From the NCBI GenBank assembly GCA_016192035.1, contig JACPUW010000026.1, positions 16,779-80,778 of the forward strand: a DNA stretch of 64,000 nucleotides, in the 5' to 3' direction. The stretch's first letter is position 1. Every line of letters starts with the position of its first letter. Position numbers and translations under genes: made by a program. Shown here one piece after another: positions 36,019 through 50,801 of the stretch. The notes beneath the pieces are model-generated. The model was not told the DNA's origin. It ran no database searches and saw only the letters and a list, made by a program, of their open reading frames with translations. Source of the DNA: Bacteroidota bacterium. GTDB taxonomy: Bacteria; Bacteroidota; Bacteroidia; CAILMK01; JACPUW01.

Positions 36019-38181
36019 TTAGCGTTTGAAGAGCCAAACCGCAGGGTCGGCCGATTTCTGCAATTCCGCAAGTTTAGACCGTGCTTCGGTAGCGTCAAGC
36101 GAACTGAAAAGTGCTACACGGTACATGTTCTTGTCCTTGTCAAAGAGTATTTTGGGGCTAAATCCCTTGGCTGCGTAGCTGTCGCGCAGCTTAATGGCAT
36201 TGTCTATGGTGCCAAAAGTTCCGGCTATCACGTGGTAAAACTTGTTGTTCTCATCCAGCACTTCTATCCTCAGGCCTTTTTCATCCTTGTACGTGAGCTC
36301 CACCGACTTTTTGATGACGGGCTGCTCTTTGGCAGATTTTTCTTCGGATTCCTCCTTTTTTTCCATCTTCTTGAGGTCGCGCTCGTATTTTTTGCCTTCG
36401 AGTACCCAAATATTTGGATTGTTTAGGGCGGCACGCATTTTCATTTTGTACTGCTCCGCATCGGCTGAATCCACTGTTTTGTAGAGGCTTACCCTATAGA
36501 AACTGCGCTCCTTATGTTCAATAATGTCGGCCTTGTACCCTTTAGAAATGAGTTCGTCCCTGAACCGTTTGGCATTTTCAAAACTGCCAAATGAACCCGC
36601 AATCACATAATTGAAGGTATTTGAAGCGTCATAATCCTCTACGGTAACGCCTTCTATAACCTTCTTTTTAGCCCGCGCCTCAGCCTCTTCGGCTTCCTTC
36701 TTGGCCGCTGCTTCGGCCTCCTTTCTTGCGGCTTCTTCTGCCTCCTTTTTTGCGGCCGCTTCAGCTTCCTTTCTTGCCGCTTCTTCGGCTTGCTTTCGGG
36801 CTGCCTCTTCCGCTTCTTTCTTTGCTTTGAGGTTGGCTTCATTCTCAGCTGCCAGTGCGGTTTCTATTGCCGCCAACTGCTCGTTGGGATAGGCCTCATT
36901 AGGTTTCACACCGAGCGCTTCCCTATACTTGGCCGCAGCGGTTTCCCAGTCTTTGGCTGCATAAGCAGCGTCGGCGGCGGCTATCAGTTCCGCATATTCC
37001 ATATCGGCAGCCTCCCTTTCTGCCCTCGACATGCGGTCTTCTTCATCCGCTATGGCGGCATCTATGGCTTTGAGTTGGTCACTTGGGTAGGCTTCTGCCG
37101 GCTTTAAGCCCAGGGCCTCTGTATATTTTTCACGCGCTGTAGCCCAGTCCTTTGCATCAAACGCCGCGTCGGCTTCGGCAATCAGGGCTGCATAAGCCAT
37201 TTCGGCAGGATCTTCCACGGCCGGGGTGTCTTCCACCATCAGGCTGTCGTTCACCACCAATCGGGAAGTATCGGGCAGTTCCTCTTTCTTTTCTACCAGG
37301 GTGTATTTAATGGTAACCTCATGGCTAGGGCCTGAGAAATAGGTCAAGGCACCGGCATGATGGTCATAGGAATAACCCACATCTATCATTTCCTTTACCT
37401 TGAGGCCTACGGCACCCACATAGGTGTTGGGTGAGCGATAGGAAGCTCCAAACCATATGAAATCCTTAAATAAGAACCTGCCGTTTAGGTCGGCCTGGAG
37501 CGGCTGGCCCATGGCATAGCGGATCATAAACGAAGGTTCAAAAAACCAAACGCTGTCCACAATGGGAATATTAAACCCTGTAATCCAGTAGAAATGCCTT
37601 GCGTTTGTGATCATGGCTGCTCCTCCATCGTCAAACTTGTTCTTGGTTTGGGCCAGGTTTAGCGCACTAAAGCTGGTATAGAAATTTTCGGTGCTCAAAG
37701 CCAATCCCGCATTGGCATCAAAGGATGTGGCACTTGCCGCGCCGCCAAGCACCGGATCGGTCATATCAAACTCATCACTGGTAAAATACATGAAATCCAG
37801 ACCTTTATTGAGCACGCTTGCACCCAGGCCAAAAGAGAAGTTCACCTTGTCGCGCAGGTGAATATGGTAGGCATACGAGGCCTGGAAGTTGGTGCTTCGC
37901 AGGGGGCCTATCGTATTGTTCATGAGGTAGGCACCCAATCCAAACTTCTGCTCCTTAAACGGCATTTCAAAGGATAGCATTTGGGTTTTGGGCCCATCTA
38001 TAAACCCAATAAAATCTTGCCTATAGGCGGCCAATGCCGAAAGCTGACCGCTTGCTCCGGCCAAGGCAGGATTGAATATATAGTTGTTGAGGTAATACTG
38101 GCTTATGACGGGATTTTGTGCCCTAAGGGAACCAGCTAGTACAATCAGGAGGACGGCAGATACTGTTAGTCGCTTTTTCAT
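36019..38181 (-). CDS. PorP/SprF-family outer-membrane protein fused to a TPR-like/coiled-coil/double SPOR tail
   Basis: The N-terminal ~300 residues are a PorP/SprF-type barrel: signal peptide, then 'NPVISQYYLNNYIFNPALAGA', 'EMPFKEQKFGLGAYLMNN' and 'GASYRSPNTYVGAVGLKV'. Two TPR-like repeats follow ('AKDWATAREKYTEALGLKPAEAYP' and a near-copy). Then come about 60 residues of Ala/Glu/Lys coiled coil and two SPOR domains ('FNYVIAGSFGSFENAKRFRDEL', 'FYHVIAGTFGTIDNAIKLRDSY'). PorP/SprF proteins normally end after the barrel (about 300-340 aa). SPOR domains bind peptidoglycan lacking stem peptides. The gene is 2 bp downstream of the type B CTD gene, its likely partner. I infer an outer-membrane anchor tied to the cell wall. 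Confidence 0.88.
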   Translation of the reverse strand: MKKRLTVSAVLLIVLAGSLRAQNPVISQYYLNNYIFNPALAGASGQLSALAAYRQDFIGFIDGPKTQMLSFEMPFKEQKFGLGAYLMNNTIGPLRSTNFQASYAYHIHLRDKVNFSFGLGASVLNKGLDFMYFTSDEFDMTDPVLGGAASATSFDANAGLALSTENFYTSFSALNLAQTKNKFDDGGAAMITNARHFYWITGFNIPIVDSVWFFEPSFMIRYAMGQPLQADLNGRFLFKDFIWFGASYRSPNTYVGAVGLKVKEMIDVGYSYDHHAGALTYFSGPSHEVTIKYTLVEKKEELPDTSRLVVNDSLMVEDTPAVEDPAEMAYAALIAEADAAFDAKDWATAREKYTEALGLKPAEAYPSDQLKAIDAAIADEEDRMSRAEREAADMEYAELIAAADAAYAAKDWETAAAKYREALGVKPNEAYPNEQLAAIETALAAENEANLKAKKEAEEAARKQAEEAARKEAEAAAKKEAEEAARKEAEAAAKKEAEEAEARAKKKVIEGVTVEDYDASNTFNYVIAGSFGSFENAKRFRDELISKGYKADIIEHKERSFYRVSLYKTVDSADAEQYKMKMRAALNNPNIWVLEGKKYERDLKKMEKKEESEEKSAKEQPVIKKSVELTYKDEKGLRIEVLDENNKFYHVIAGTFGTIDNAIKLRDSYAAKGFSPKILFDKDKNMYRVALFSSLDATEARSKLAELQKSADPAVWLFKR
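36665..36835. repeat. Imperfect tandem repeat encoding an EAAxKEAE coiled coil
   Basis: About 170 bp inside the PorP/SprF-SPOR gene repeat units such as 'gcttccttcttggccgctgc' with small changes. They encode alternating EEAARKEA and EAAAKKEA blocks. Such a tract could vary in copy number by slippage, changing the length of the rod between barrel and SPOR domains. It is coding sequence, not a CRISPR array. Confidence 0.7.
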
Positions 38182-38183
38182 TT

Positions 38184-40322
38184 CTATTTCTTTGATCTAA
38201 TTATGGTTACAGTTCCCCTTTCTTCTTCCCATACCTCATTGACCAGCACCCTGACCACATACATATAGGTATCTTCGGCTACCAATTGTCCGCTATAGGC
38301 ACCGTCCCAGCGATTGTCGTAGTTTTTGGTACTGTAGATGATGTCGCCCCATTTATTGATTACAATGAGCTCATTTTCATATTTGGCTATATCGCGTACC
38401 ACAAAGTAGTCGTTAACCCCATCTCCATTCGGAGAAAAGAACTTAGGCACAATTACATAAGGTTTGCCACAGCGTTTGGTAATTACCGCTATGTCCAGGG
38501 TATCGGTAGTGCACTTGCCATCATTGCCCACTACCCTAAACACCTTCCGGGTGTTTACTTCATCCACTTTCACTATGATTTTGTCAGAAGATTCACCCGT
38601 ATTCCACCAAAAATTGGTGGTTCCGGTAGCGGCAAGGGTTACTTCGGTGCCCACACAAACTTCATATTCGGTCTTTTCCGCGCTGATTGTAGGTTTTGGG
38701 TTCACGGTTATGGTGAGTGAATCAATACCTGGGCAGCCTGTTCCGGACAATATGAGCCCATAAGTAGTGGTTGACAAAGGAAAAGCCTTTGGGTTTGGCG
38801 CGAAGGCATCGCTGAGCGTTTCGGAATTGCTCCATTGAAATATGCCGGTACCCGCAGCACTGAGCTGCACGGTGTCACCCTGGCAAATTTCCAAGTCAGG
38901 CCCTGCATCAACCGTGATGCTCTCAACCACACGTACCATAATGGTGTCATAATCGGGGCAGGAGTTCACATCTTCTATCTCCACAATAAATTCCGTATCG
39001 GAGCGTACAAAGGCAATTGGATCAGGTATATCCTCCCTATTTACGCTATCCTTTGGTTCCCAGCTATAAAACACCCCACCGCTTGCCTTGAACTGCACGG
39101 AATCGCCCTTGCAGAGCGTGGTATCATGGAAGGTAAGTTTCCCATCCGTTTGCCGCTTAATGTCCAATACCACCGAATCTATACCTGGACATTTTTCGCC
39201 CGCCGAAATGGTAGCCACATAAACCTTGACCGTTTCGGTTGGCTTGCACCAGGGGCTTACCACCTCATCATTGCTGAGAATGTGTGAAGGTGACCACTTA
39301 AAGAAGGTGCCTCCCCTTGCTTCTAATTGCAAACTATCACCCAGACAGAGGAAAGTGTCACTGGAAGGAATGCTTATTTCGGCAGGACGGGGAACGCCGA
39401 AATCAATAAAAACTTGGTCGGTCGATTTGCAGGAACCAATGCTCACTGCCACTTCATAAGTCTGGGCCTTAGTAGCTTTGAGCAGAGGGGTTGGAATATC
39501 GTATTTGGAAAGGATGTCGGCCCCAGAGGTAACGGCAGTCCAGAAATAGCTGGCACCGCCCGAGGCATTGAGCCTGACGCCCCTTCCTTGGCAAACTATG
39601 GTATCCCTTCCTGCATTGGCCACTACTTTGGGAAAATCCACGGTTAGCCGCGGACGATATTGTGGCACATCATAATCACTGCTGCAGAAGTGTACTTGGC
39701 GTTCGGTAGTTTCATCGGCCAATACGACCCTAAATCCGAAGTTGCTATCGGGGTATTCCAACCAAAAGCGCACCATATCGGTCATGTCTATGGTCACATC
39801 TTCGGTGGCTGTGGACGTGGCCGGCACCAGTATTCGGTGGGCGTTTCCGGTCATCTTGGTCACATTGGGCATTCTGAGAAAACCCGATGACACCGGCACT
39901 TGCCAACGGATGGTGTCCTCTGCCCAATCACCCGTTACACGCTCTATATAAAACGCGTTGTTGCCAGTGTTCAGGTGTTCATCACCGGCCAGCGCCGCCC
40001 TATAATAGTAGAGATCCAGTTTGGCCGAATTGGGCAGGGCGGTAGGATCCAATTTGCCAAAGGCAGAAAGGTCAAACTTAACAAACGACCTCATGAGCCG
40101 GGTAACACCTCCCAGTTGTTTGGCAGATGCGTAAATGTGCTTCGTTTCGGCCCTATTGGTGGTGTCACAGGGCACGGCGGGTACCCCACATAAGGGGTAA
40201 CGGTGGCAAACGGCGTCAATCCCATCGGTGGGGCCAGGCTGGGCCACATACACGCATTGCGCACTTACCCAATGGGTTAATACAAGGGATAACAGCAGGA
40301 AAATTGGGAGTTTTCTGGGCAT
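38184..40322 (-). CDS. Secreted DNRLRE/Ig-repeat protein with gliding-motility (type B) T9SS CTD
   Basis: A surface protein of about 712 aa. I start at 40322 (MPRKLPIFLLLSLVLTHWVSAQ) for the signal peptide. A DNRLRE-type beta domain occupies the first ~235 residues ('SFVKFDLSAFG', 'IDMTDMVRFWLEYPDSNFGF'). Four or so Ig-like repeats with 'LCLGDSLQLEARGG'-type cores follow. The C-terminus is a type B CTD: 'PKFFSPNGDGVNDYFVV', 'INKWGDIIYSTKNYDNRWDG' and 'DTYMYVVRV'. Type B proteins such as SprB rely on PorP/SprF partners, and exactly such a gene follows 2 bp downstream. Confidence 0.92.
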   Translation of the reverse strand: MPRKLPIFLLLSLVLTHWVSAQCVYVAQPGPTDGIDAVCHRYPLCGVPAVPCDTTNRAETKHIYASAKQLGGVTRLMRSFVKFDLSAFGKLDPTALPNSAKLDLYYYRAALAGDEHLNTGNNAFYIERVTGDWAEDTIRWQVPVSSGFLRMPNVTKMTGNAHRILVPATSTATEDVTIDMTDMVRFWLEYPDSNFGFRVVLADETTERQVHFCSSDYDVPQYRPRLTVDFPKVVANAGRDTIVCQGRGVRLNASGGASYFWTAVTSGADILSKYDIPTPLLKATKAQTYEVAVSIGSCKSTDQVFIDFGVPRPAEISIPSSDTFLCLGDSLQLEARGGTFFKWSPSHILSNDEVVSPWCKPTETVKVYVATISAGEKCPGIDSVVLDIKRQTDGKLTFHDTTLCKGDSVQFKASGGVFYSWEPKDSVNREDIPDPIAFVRSDTEFIVEIEDVNSCPDYDTIMVRVVESITVDAGPDLEICQGDTVQLSAAGTGIFQWSNSETLSDAFAPNPKAFPLSTTTYGLILSGTGCPGIDSLTITVNPKPTISAEKTEYEVCVGTEVTLAATGTTNFWWNTGESSDKIIVKVDEVNTRKVFRVVGNDGKCTTDTLDIAVITKRCGKPYVIVPKFFSPNGDGVNDYFVVRDIAKYENELIVINKWGDIIYSTKNYDNRWDGAYSGQLVAEDTYMYVVRVLVNEVWEEERGTVTIIRSKK

Positions 40323-40683
40323 CGTAGCAAGAAATTTAGAGTTTTCAATATCCGTTAAGGGGAAATCGAAGGTCAATATTAGGTCATTTACTTAAATGTT
40401 AAGCCTATGGTTAGCTTTTATATGATATGCCAAGCATAAAGCCGAGTACGTACAAAAGTAGGGTTTGACCCTATTCATGCCGTTGCCTCACCATTTGAAA
40501 TCGCCCTAAACCTTCCTGCAATACCTTTGTTGTTTGAAATCGGTCTAAATAACGCAATCAAAAGGATTTGGCAATTGATGTAACAACCCGTTTCGGCAAG
40601 GCAGAAATGGCCTTTGTGGCAGCCTTGCAGATGGGCCAAACCCGGGATTATGACCGATTTATACTTTGAATCAAATTGTTAGC
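40323..40683. promoter_or_regulatory. Regulatory region upstream of sufB with repeated AAATCG elements
   Basis: This 361-bp region between divergent genes holds a 17-bp direct repeat, TTTGAAATCGCCCTAAA at 40494 and TTTGAAATCGGTCTAAA at 40533 (15 of 17 identical, 39 bp apart). A third, inverted copy of the core lies at 40652 (GACCGATTT). A Bacteroidota-style -7 box TACCTTTG (consensus TAnnTTTG) lies at 40522, between the two direct copies, with a TTTG at 40494 whose spacing is a little long. This looks like an operator/promoter for the suf operon. Confidence 0.5.
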
Positions 40684-47899: not shown

Positions 47900-48032
47900 C
47901 GGATCCTGCGACCTTTTACCCGCATTTCATACTTAAGTAGGTGGTATAACCCTAATACTTACGGTGATTACCGTAGGATTGGCTGCAACTGCCTACCTTA
48001 ATCTTGCCCCTTCATTCTTTAAAACAAGCACC

Positions 48033-50801
48033 ATGAGGAAGGCAATAAGTACGTGTTGGTTTATGATGATGGGGATGCTGGCGGCTACCGCCCAAACGGG
48101 CGATAAATACTTTAGCAACAAGGATTACCGTTCGGCGGTAATAGCCTACGAGAAAGAAGTGGGCAAATCGCCGGATAAGTACCTAAACCTGGCCAAGAGC
48201 CATTTTGCACTAAAACAGTTTGACGAGGCTGCTGCCGCCATGCGCGGATACCGCGACAACTACGGCAGTGCAGACAAGACCATGGCCGAAAATTGGATTC
48301 AACTCCTGGAGCGCAATGACGACCCCGTGAGGATCAATAACTTGGGCAGTGCCGTAAATACTGATGTCAATGAATACCTACCGGTGGTGTCGGCTGATGG
48401 CAAAACACTGTATTTCTGCTCTGATGGAAAGGCCGGGGGCCTAGGTGGAGAAGACATTTGGTACTGCGAAAAACAGGGCGATGGTAGCTGGACCGCGCCA
48501 AAAAACTTCAGTTCGCTCAATACCAGTTCACATGAAGCCATGATGTCCATATCGGCCGATGGCAATGTGGCCATTCTCTTTGGCAATTACAACGGCTCCT
48601 TTGGCTCAGGTGACCTGTTTTACTCCGTAAAAACAGCCAATGGATGGTCGGTGCCCTGTAACCTGGGCGGTGACGTGAACACCACCGGTTGGGAAAGCCA
48701 GGCCAATCTTTCGGCTGATGGCAAAACGCTCATATTCACATCTAGCCGTGACGGCTCCCGTGGCATAGGCGACCTGTGGATGACCCGCTTGGGCGAAAAC
48801 GGATGGAGCACCCCCGTGAACCTGGGCAGCCAGATAAATTCCACCGCCGATGAGGGTAGCCCTCAGTTGGCCGCTGACGGCAAAACCTTGTATTTCAAAT
48901 CAAACGGCCACCCCGGATTTGGGGGTTATGACATGTTTATGTCACGCCGGCTTGACGATACCTGGCAAAACTGGTCAACCCCGGTAAACATGGGCAAGTA
49001 TATCAATACCGTGGAAGACGATTCTTACCTAACCATACCCTCTTCGGGGGTAAAGGCTTACCTCAATAAAAGCAATCTTCTTGACGGCTACGGGGGGACC
49101 GATCTGTACGAGTTTATCCTGCCGCTCGATATGAGGCCCGAGTCCACCATCAACGTATATGGCAAAATCAGGGATGAGAACAACCGCAACGTGGCAGCCA
49201 TCATTCGCTACCATGACTGGGAAACCGGAAAGGAAGTGGCACAAACACAGAGCAATCCAGCCGATGGAATTTATAAGACATCCCTGCCCCTGTTTAAAAA
49301 GTACCGGGTAGTGATAGACATGAAAGGATACCTGTACTACAATACCGAACTGGACCTTACCGACCCTGAGGCCATTTGGGGCAAAGAGTACATGAATACC
49401 ATACTGGGGATGCACGCCATGAACGACCTAATGGCCCTGCAGCAGAAAATGGACAATCTCAATGAAGAGTTGAAAAAACTGCTGTTGGCCAACTCATCCC
49501 AAATAAAAGAAACATTTGATGAATACCAAAAGACGGTGGCCGAATACCAGCGCACCCTCACTGCATTTGAGGGACGCATCATGGATGCCAAGTATGAATG
49601 GATGGGCCGTGAAGACCTGCGCAGTGAGGTGGAGCGTGACTACTACCTGCAATCCATCACCGTGGGGGCCGCTTTTGAGCTGAAGAACATATTCTTCGAT
49701 TTTGGAAAAGCTACCCTCAAGGATGAATCACTGCTGGAACTTGACAAACTGGTGGACATAATGAAGCGGAGCCGCATAGTGATAGAACTCGGCGGGCATA
49801 CCGACTCAGTGGGCTCTGATGAAGCCAACCTATTGTTATCCCAAGAACGGGTAAATAGCGTAAGGGCCTACCTGGTGGGCAAAGGCGTGACACAGGAGCG
49901 CATATCGGCAGTGGGATATGGCGAAACCCAGCCCATAGCCGATAACAAAACCGATGTGGGCAGGGCGGCCAACCGACGGGTAGAAGCCAAGATAACGGAG
50001 ATTCTACAAGAGGGCAAGGACGTGGCCGGGGCCTATACCGAAGAAGAGAAAGCACCTGATTTTGACATACTTTCAGCACTGCAGCGCGCTGCCCGAAACG
50101 GTGGTGTGCCCGATGGCAGCTACTGTTCGGATAAAGTGGTGCTCACCACCGATGTGGATCCCGACGAATACATAGTGGTGAAAAAAGGAAACGACAAGGG
50201 TTTCAATCCCGGCAACATAAAGCTGGGCAACGGCGACTACTTTGAGCGCGACCAATACATCTATGGTTCGTTTAATATAAGTGCCATCAATATGGGTTTT
50301 AAAAACCCCAACTACGAATGGAACCCCCTGGCCGTGGACAAATACACCTACTGGGGCATAGAGCTGAACCGGGTAAAGGAAAACTACAAGGAGGGCCGCT
50401 GGCGCTTGTATGGCCTGGGAGGGCCGGGCACCTCCTATGGACTTGGACACAGCCAGTTGTGGGACATCCGCCTGCACAAGCTCACCACGCTCAACCTGAA
50501 CCTGATGTTTGGGTTTGATGCCGATGTGTATGCCCTTTCGGAGCTTGACAACGATGACTACGAAGCAAAGGGTTTCCTCACCATTCCCGTGGGGCTTCGC
50601 TACGTACACGAGCTAGGCAGCCTCAAAATAGGCCCCGAAGTGTTCTACAACTATGGTTTATTGCAGCCATCGGGCTGGCCCTCTGCCACACACCTGCGCG
50701 TGGGTTCCAGCATACGCTGGAAATTCTTGCAGGGAGGGGTGTTCCTGAATATAGGCGAAGAAATAAACTACCTAGGCCTACGGGCAGGATTTGCCTTCTA
50801 G
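48033..50801 (+). CDS. OmpA/PD40/TPR outer-membrane protein with C-terminal beta domain
   Basis: A secreted envelope protein of about 922 aa (start at 48033, signal peptide MRKAISTCWFMMMGMLAATAQ). Order: TPR-like helices (20-95); PD40/WD40-like repeats with recurring 'SADGKTLYFCSDG' and 'SPQLAADGKTLYFKS' (about 110-360); a carboxypeptidase-regulatory-like beta domain (370-450); a coiled coil (465-550); then an OmpA peptidoglycan-binding domain ('IFFDFGKATL', 'IELGGHTDSVGSDEANLLLS', 'RAANRRVEAKI') at about 552-656. Unusually, about 260 more residues follow, beta-rich and ending in Phe, possibly a barrel. PorE-like OmpA proteins of this type help T9SS anchor to peptidoglycan. Confidence 0.88.
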   Translation: MRKAISTCWFMMMGMLAATAQTGDKYFSNKDYRSAVIAYEKEVGKSPDKYLNLAKSHFALKQFDEAAAAMRGYRDNYGSADKTMAENWIQLLERNDDPVRINNLGSAVNTDVNEYLPVVSADGKTLYFCSDGKAGGLGGEDIWYCEKQGDGSWTAPKNFSSLNTSSHEAMMSISADGNVAILFGNYNGSFGSGDLFYSVKTANGWSVPCNLGGDVNTTGWESQANLSADGKTLIFTSSRDGSRGIGDLWMTRLGENGWSTPVNLGSQINSTADEGSPQLAADGKTLYFKSNGHPGFGGYDMFMSRRLDDTWQNWSTPVNMGKYINTVEDDSYLTIPSSGVKAYLNKSNLLDGYGGTDLYEFILPLDMRPESTINVYGKIRDENNRNVAAIIRYHDWETGKEVAQTQSNPADGIYKTSLPLFKKYRVVIDMKGYLYYNTELDLTDPEAIWGKEYMNTILGMHAMNDLMALQQKMDNLNEELKKLLLANSSQIKETFDEYQKTVAEYQRTLTAFEGRIMDAKYEWMGREDLRSEVERDYYLQSITVGAAFELKNIFFDFGKATLKDESLLELDKLVDIMKRSRIVIELGGHTDSVGSDEANLLLSQERVNSVRAYLVGKGVTQERISAVGYGETQPIADNKTDVGRAANRRVEAKITEILQEGKDVAGAYTEEEKAPDFDILSALQRAARNGGVPDGSYCSDKVVLTTDVDPDEYIVVKKGNDKGFNPGNIKLGNGDYFERDQYIYGSFNISAINMGFKNPNYEWNPLAVDKYTYWGIELNRVKENYKEGRWRLYGLGGPGTSYGLGHSQLWDIRLHKLTTLNLNLMFGFDADVYALSELDNDDYEAKGFLTIPVGLRYVHELGSLKIGPEVFYNYGLLQPSGWPSATHLRVGSSIRWKFLQGGVFLNIGEEINYLGLRAGFAF

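Follow-up and report, generated by a model that had tools for sequence, protein, structure and literature searches.

We propose that a gene within the 64,000-nucleotide stretch of Bacteroidota DNA analysed here (the window) encodes a type B T9SS carrier (that is, a PorP/SprF shuttle) that has its own cell-wall anchor and holds its partner protein statically at the cell surface, a reading to which we assign a probability of roughly 0.7. The gene directly upstream encodes a protein with a type B T9SS C-terminal domain (CTD), and the carrier barrel continues, in the same chain, into TPR-like repeats, a helical rod and two SPOR domains. PorP carriers and the proposal that PorE is a wall anchor are already known, and what is new here is the SPOR-fused variant; in the open-access literature we found no paper describing a PorP–SPOR fusion (subscription journals and preprints lie outside this coverage).

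Architecture and predicted structure

The open frame, together with curated profiles, bears out the initial annotation of a PorP/SprF barrel joined in one chain to TPR-like repeats, a rod and two SPOR domains (Table 1). The whole barrel matches PF11751 and TIGR03519 (T9SS_PorP_fam, E 5e-70) above curated cut-offs, and Pfam SPOR (PF05036) matches in two stretches (E 4e-13, 50 bits against a cut-off of 21). The two TPR-like repeats are weak by sequence (Pfam TPR_11, E 0.3) and are backed by predicted helical hairpins and by clear TPRs in the corresponding position of relatives (L072, E 9e-24; L073, E 5e-13). In a Pfam scan, the protein gave no match to PD40, CarboxypepD_reg or OmpA; it may work like PorE plus PorP, though it is not a PorE. 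None of its 720 residues is cysteine.

Table 1 Features of the fusion gene and its type B partner (positions in the window)
Feature	Position	Strand	Basis
PorP/SprF–SPOR fusion gene	36019..38181	-	720 aa; uninterrupted frame; PorP_SprF and SPOR domains
N-terminal signal-peptide-like stretch, residues 1-21	38119..38181	-	Sequence MKKRLTVSAVLLIVLAGSLRAQ by direct reading
PorP/SprF beta-barrel, residues 21-293	37303..38121	-	Pfam PF11751, E 2e-68; TIGR03519
Two TPR-like helical pairs, residues about 325-440	36862..37209	-	AF2 helices; weak Pfam TPR_11
EAA/KEA rod, single predicted 73-residue helix, residues 430-502	36676..36894	-	AF2 secondary structure and sequence
SPOR domain 1, residues about 512-596	36394..36648	-	Pfam SPOR; local SPOR profile; fold matches
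SPOR domain 2, residues about 638-719	36025..36270	-	Pfam SPOR, second stretch; local profile; fold matches
Partner gene, DNRLRE / Ig-like protein with type B T9SS CTD	38184..40322	-	Profile matches and sequence
CHU_C / type B CTD of partner	38205..38453	-	Pfam PF13585, E 2e-18

Only 2 bp separate the stop codon of the partner gene from the ATG of the PorP gene directly downstream (the partner coordinates are counted from an ATG, and its open reading frame reaches back to a TTG at 40376). Matches of the partner protein to NF033679 (DNRLRE, E 2e-19), TIGR04131 (E 1e-14), Ig_7 and CHU_C, taken with the sequence, agree with the earlier description of this immediate neighbour as a DNRLRE/Ig protein with a type B CTD, and this CTD is presumed to be the carrier-binding signal.

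An AlphaFold2 (AF2) model of the fusion protein (40-row alignment, mean pLDDT 82.6) places a helix at residues 2-15, followed by the barrel (pLDDT mostly above 90), a disordered linker (300-324), helical pairs (325-425), the helix at 430-502 and two SPOR folds with a helix between them; as overall pTM is 0.46, the relative placement of these parts is not given by the model. The 73-residue helix, calculated at 1.5 Å per residue to be ~11 nm in length and modelled with low confidence from about residue 490 on, would be long enough to span much of the periplasm. Foldseek comparisons indicate that the barrel resembles FadL and chain F of T9SS translocon structures (8gl6_F and 6h3i_F), a chain that we take to be PorV. 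The SPOR pair modelled alone retrieved solved SPORs of CwlC, DedD, DamX, FtsN and RlpA (1x60, 6ztg, 2lfv, 1uta and 6i05) at Foldseek probabilities of 0.91-1.00; the E-values were weak, which is usual for so small a domain.

Distribution of PorP–SPOR fusions

We searched a profile of the fused SPOR through 395 related genomes, many of which look like draft MAGs, and read 80 loci with their neighbours in addition to 13 earlier ones and the window, using local profiles to call barrel, SPOR, CHU_C and OmpA domains. This yielded 43 PorP–SPOR fusions in 36 genomes, 16 families and 20 genera, the genomes being tallied by hand. All 43 lie directly downstream of a type B gene, none is followed by a PorE-OmpA gene and none ends in a short C-terminal Cys tail. 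Among 51 unfused PorPs, 32 directly follow a type B gene, and a PorE-OmpA gene lies downstream of 13 of these 32 versus 0 of the 43 fusions (Fisher p 3e-6, naive); given that fused copies were gathered through SPOR hits, unfused copies through best barrel hits, and the genomes are related, such Fisher values are descriptive and are not probabilities under phylogeny. The earlier statement that PorP/SprF proteins end after the barrel holds for most copies but overlooks a coherent SPOR-fused subfamily.

In a Pfam scan of nine further fusions, PorP was found in all nine and SPOR above the cut-off in six; in L072, L073 and L261, SPOR is below the Pfam cut-off or unlisted, and the call rests on the local profile. 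Divergent fusions with one or two SPORs are also present in family f52, some in genomes of one to few contigs, and five of eight adjoin a type B gene within the stretch examined. Left out of the fusion count were the ORFs L171 and L178 and the separate SPOR genes of family f40, none of which has a PorP domain, and also SPOR proteins from family f69, about 620-670 aa long, which have no PorP match and which we read, by eye on L084, as secretins. Proteins of this size with a C-terminal SPOR after an apparent secretin domain occur at L084-L106 and L109-L112 (mostly f69, from another class of the phylum).

The initial annotation had named a frameshift or an assembly join that merged two separate genes as what would refute it. 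On this explanation, to which we now give next to no credence, the fusion would mean nothing biologically. The gene is one uninterrupted frame, and a second genome of the same genus (L070/P0001), assembled separately, encodes a fusion that is 63% identical, has the same two SPORs and is accompanied, as in the window, by a DNRLRE/type B neighbour and then sufB/sufC (neighbour names read from the sequences). The 43 collected fusions also speak against a join, with similar ones found in few-contig genomes, including the single-contig genomes G172 and G188.

Carriers in the genome of the window

The genome from which the window derives has four PorP/SprF genes in total, that is, one before gldKLMN, one Cys-Pro-tailed copy before gldJ and two that are SPOR-fused, both of which directly follow a type B gene. 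The second of these fusions (contig C35) consists of PorP and one SPOR and comes directly after an 1838-aa type B protein. As the same genome has 35 matches to type B-type CTDs (32 over the cut-off), besides 99 type A matches, the four carriers would have to serve many type B proteins; most type B proteins here would be orphans that share these four, two of them SPOR-fused.

PorE-like OmpA proteins are encoded elsewhere in this genome and could act in trans. One of them lies in the window (47964-50801(+)) and has PD40 repeats, OmpA at residues 577-671 and a further ~270 residues beyond the OmpA domain that appear beta-rich by eye. A separate locus on contig C38 (L231, 70-2259(+)) joins an outer-membrane barrel, OmpA and a C-terminal SPOR-like match (local profile only) in one 730-aa frame.

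SPOR and OmpA in carriers and PorE-like proteins

In family f40, four PorPs have no SPOR and end in RGKYD, and the next gene (at L168, L174, L176 and L177) encodes a PorE-like TPR-PD40-CarboxypepD_reg protein with SPOR in the position of OmpA (CarboxypepD_reg is listed below 0.01 in three of the four). A barrel-only tree nests these PorPs among the fused ones (96/94 for the fused and f40 proteins together), and a clade that leaves the f40 proteins out was rejected (AU p 0.002). The f40 SPORs align best with PorP-fused SPORs, with best scores of 135-163 versus 84-97 for the best other SPOR. After addition of the f52 fusions, a single branch still sets all fused PorPs and f40 apart from the rest (99/96), subject to a long-branch warning. 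The most economical history is a single ancient fusion, after which SPOR passed from the carrier to its PorE-like partner. The window protein and its orthologue form a long, divergent branch and, in the SPOR tree, the window SPORs group nearer to non-PorP SPORs, with SPOR2 as sister of SPOR1, so that SPOR replacement or a separate gain is possible on that branch.

Further arrangements involve OmpA. One protein (L074, 3918-5594(+)) combines PorP, thrombospondin type 3 repeats (TSP3) and OmpA in one chain and is the cis OmpA version of the SPOR-fused design, and another (L255, 4884-7673(+)), whose gene follows those of a type B protein and an unfused PorP, is PorE-like with an N-terminal SPOR and a C-terminal OmpA. 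Taken together with the f40 swap, these cases suggest that SPOR and OmpA can stand in for each other in a common anchoring role. A SPOR plus OmpA protein similar to that of L255 was also seen at L262 (4785-7346(+)).

Tail ends of unfused carriers

In unfused PorPs, the last residues foretell which gene comes next. Copies linked to type B genes and ending in PRxF are followed by PorE-OmpA in 13 of 14 cases in the discovery set, and in the fourteenth (L184) the next gene is PorE-like and cut by a contig end. A second set of 20 other copies, many from genomes already in the discovery set, gave PorE-OmpA downstream of eight of nine PR[YF][FL] copies (the ninth, L244, again has a PorE-like gene cut by a contig end) and of none of the 11 copies with other tails; examples of PR[YF]F/PRYL copies among L182-L254 are L185 (3982-4926), L194 (3972-4937) and L250 (4419-5378). 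This tail could possibly be a PorE-docking peptide, and since the PRxF-type motif is clade-linked, we treat docking as a hypothesis.

Comparison with known systems

In Porphyromonas gingivalis, PorP is bound by PorE and itself binds the type B protein (PMC9143113), and a structure of the PorE C-terminal domain with a peptidoglycan fragment has been determined (PMC7192894). The PorP-PorE-PG1035 system resembles the window pair in its PorP barrel, type B partner, periplasmic TPR part, peptidoglycan-binding end and proposed anchoring of a surface protein to the wall, but its anchor is a separate lipoprotein, PorE, with a beta-propeller and OmpA, whereas the window anchor is in the same chain, uses SPOR and has no propeller (PMC9143113). 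In Flavobacterium johnsoniae, a type B adhesin whose gene is accompanied by a PorE-like gene is static, and no PorE-like genes accompany those of the moving type B adhesins (PMC12618676). The static set (Fjoh_3952, Fjoh_3951 and Fjoh_3950), for which wall anchoring is likewise proposed, shares with the window the order of a type B gene and then a PorP/SprF-like carrier, and differs in having a third, PorE-like gene where the window protein has a fused SPOR tail (PMC12618676). SprF, the carrier of SprB in gliding, shares the PorP/SprF barrel carrying a type B protein, but its short Cys-X-Cys tail is disulfide-bonded to GldK on the moving track (PMC12635249), in contrast to the cysteine-free window protein. 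The initial annotation's alternative of a gliding anchor, in so far as it would act through an SprF-type Cys tail, is rejected for this lack of cysteine; the Cys-tailed copy in this genome is the other PorP, beside gldJ.

Proposed model and alternatives

On the basis of the PorE literature, the static and moving type B findings and the lack of cysteine, we favour static wall anchoring. By analogy with known carriers, the type B protein would leave the SprA translocon, and its CTD would dock on the PorP barrel and stay bound at the cell surface. Judging from the anatomy of the fusion, the barrel would have its C-terminus on the periplasmic side, from which the TPR-like part and the 73-residue helix would reach towards the wall, and both SPOR domains would grip peptidoglycan, so that carrier and partner would be statically fixed. 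One chain would then do the job of PorP and a separate PorE (TPR-propeller-CarboxypepD-OmpA) in Porphyromonas and Flavobacterium, a notion that the f40 transfer of SPOR onto PorE supports. The initial proposal that one protein both carries the partner and clamps it to peptidoglycan therefore stands as the best-supported reading, given the invariable type B linkage, the lack of an adjacent PorE gene and the nested family with SPOR on PorE, with the reservation that binding of SPOR to the wall is inferred and the canonical glycan-contact Gln is absent.

The SPOR is the weakest link in this static wall-anchor reading. The window SPORs share fold and Pfam family with FtsN, DamX, DedD, RlpA and CwlC, which are division or lytic proteins; in the window, they belong to a chain that begins as an outer-membrane barrel. 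At the position of the glycan-contacting Gln of FtsN (Q251) and RlpA (Q270) (PMC6895207), both window SPORs have Ile, all 46 fused SPORs have Val or Ile, and so do 29 of 30 other SPORs sampled from the phylum with the fused-SPOR profile; two further contacts, the Phe of G-S/T-F and an Arg corresponding to FtsN R285, are retained in the window SPORs. Ligand and affinity may thus differ in the fused SPORs.

These residues bear on two other explanations of the tail. SPOR domains are best known for recognizing denuded septal glycan (PMC6895207), and the SPOR folds of the fusion might accordingly be a positional tag that binds this peptide-free glycan and gathers carrier and adhesin where the cell divides or at new poles, instead of clamping them all over the cell. 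We consider this unlikely, as the fused SPORs lack the Gln that contacts denuded glycan, and the presence of SPOR in place of the PorE OmpA in f40 argues for general wall anchoring and against septal targeting. The missing Gln could instead mean that the SPOR folds do not bind the wall and that the tail is a protein-docking device, with the carrier docked to another envelope protein such as GldK/N/J or a wall-bound OmpA protein, for which the TPR-like repeats and coiled coil (that is, typical protein-binding modules) and the several PorE-like OmpA proteins of this genome would be suitable. We doubt this explanation, given that SPOR and OmpA replace one another at one position of the PorE scaffold and that the fold still matches the SPOR structures of CwlC, DamX, FtsN and RlpA.

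Static wall anchoring by the fused tail may also be one case of a broader scheme, which we put forward tentatively and at somewhat less than even odds, in which PorP/SprF carriers bear in their periplasmic tail a modular code for their destination, and this tail alone decides whether an adhesin is fixed or moving. Under such a code, fused SPOR or OmpA would anchor in cis. Carriers with a short ...PR[YF]F end would dock PorE (OmpA) in trans, those ending in ...RGKYD would dock a PorE with SPOR replacing OmpA, and a ...CPxF end would mark gldJ-linked copies; the SPOR anchor would have moved from carrier to partner during evolution.

Implications

The fixed versus moving fate of type B surface proteins is an open question of T9SS biology, and the PorE anchor for static ones is as yet only proposed. 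A carrier with a covalent tail of wall-binding type turns this three-protein proposal into a single-gene test. The replacement of OmpA by SPOR in PorE amounts to an independent experiment of nature, and it points to wall binding as the function that the two share. In many families the fused design is found beside a partner gene of this type, and it therefore has the look of a widespread but overlooked means by which surface proteins are fixed to the cell wall. For SPOR, so far known chiefly from cell division, outer-membrane surface anchoring is a likely further use.
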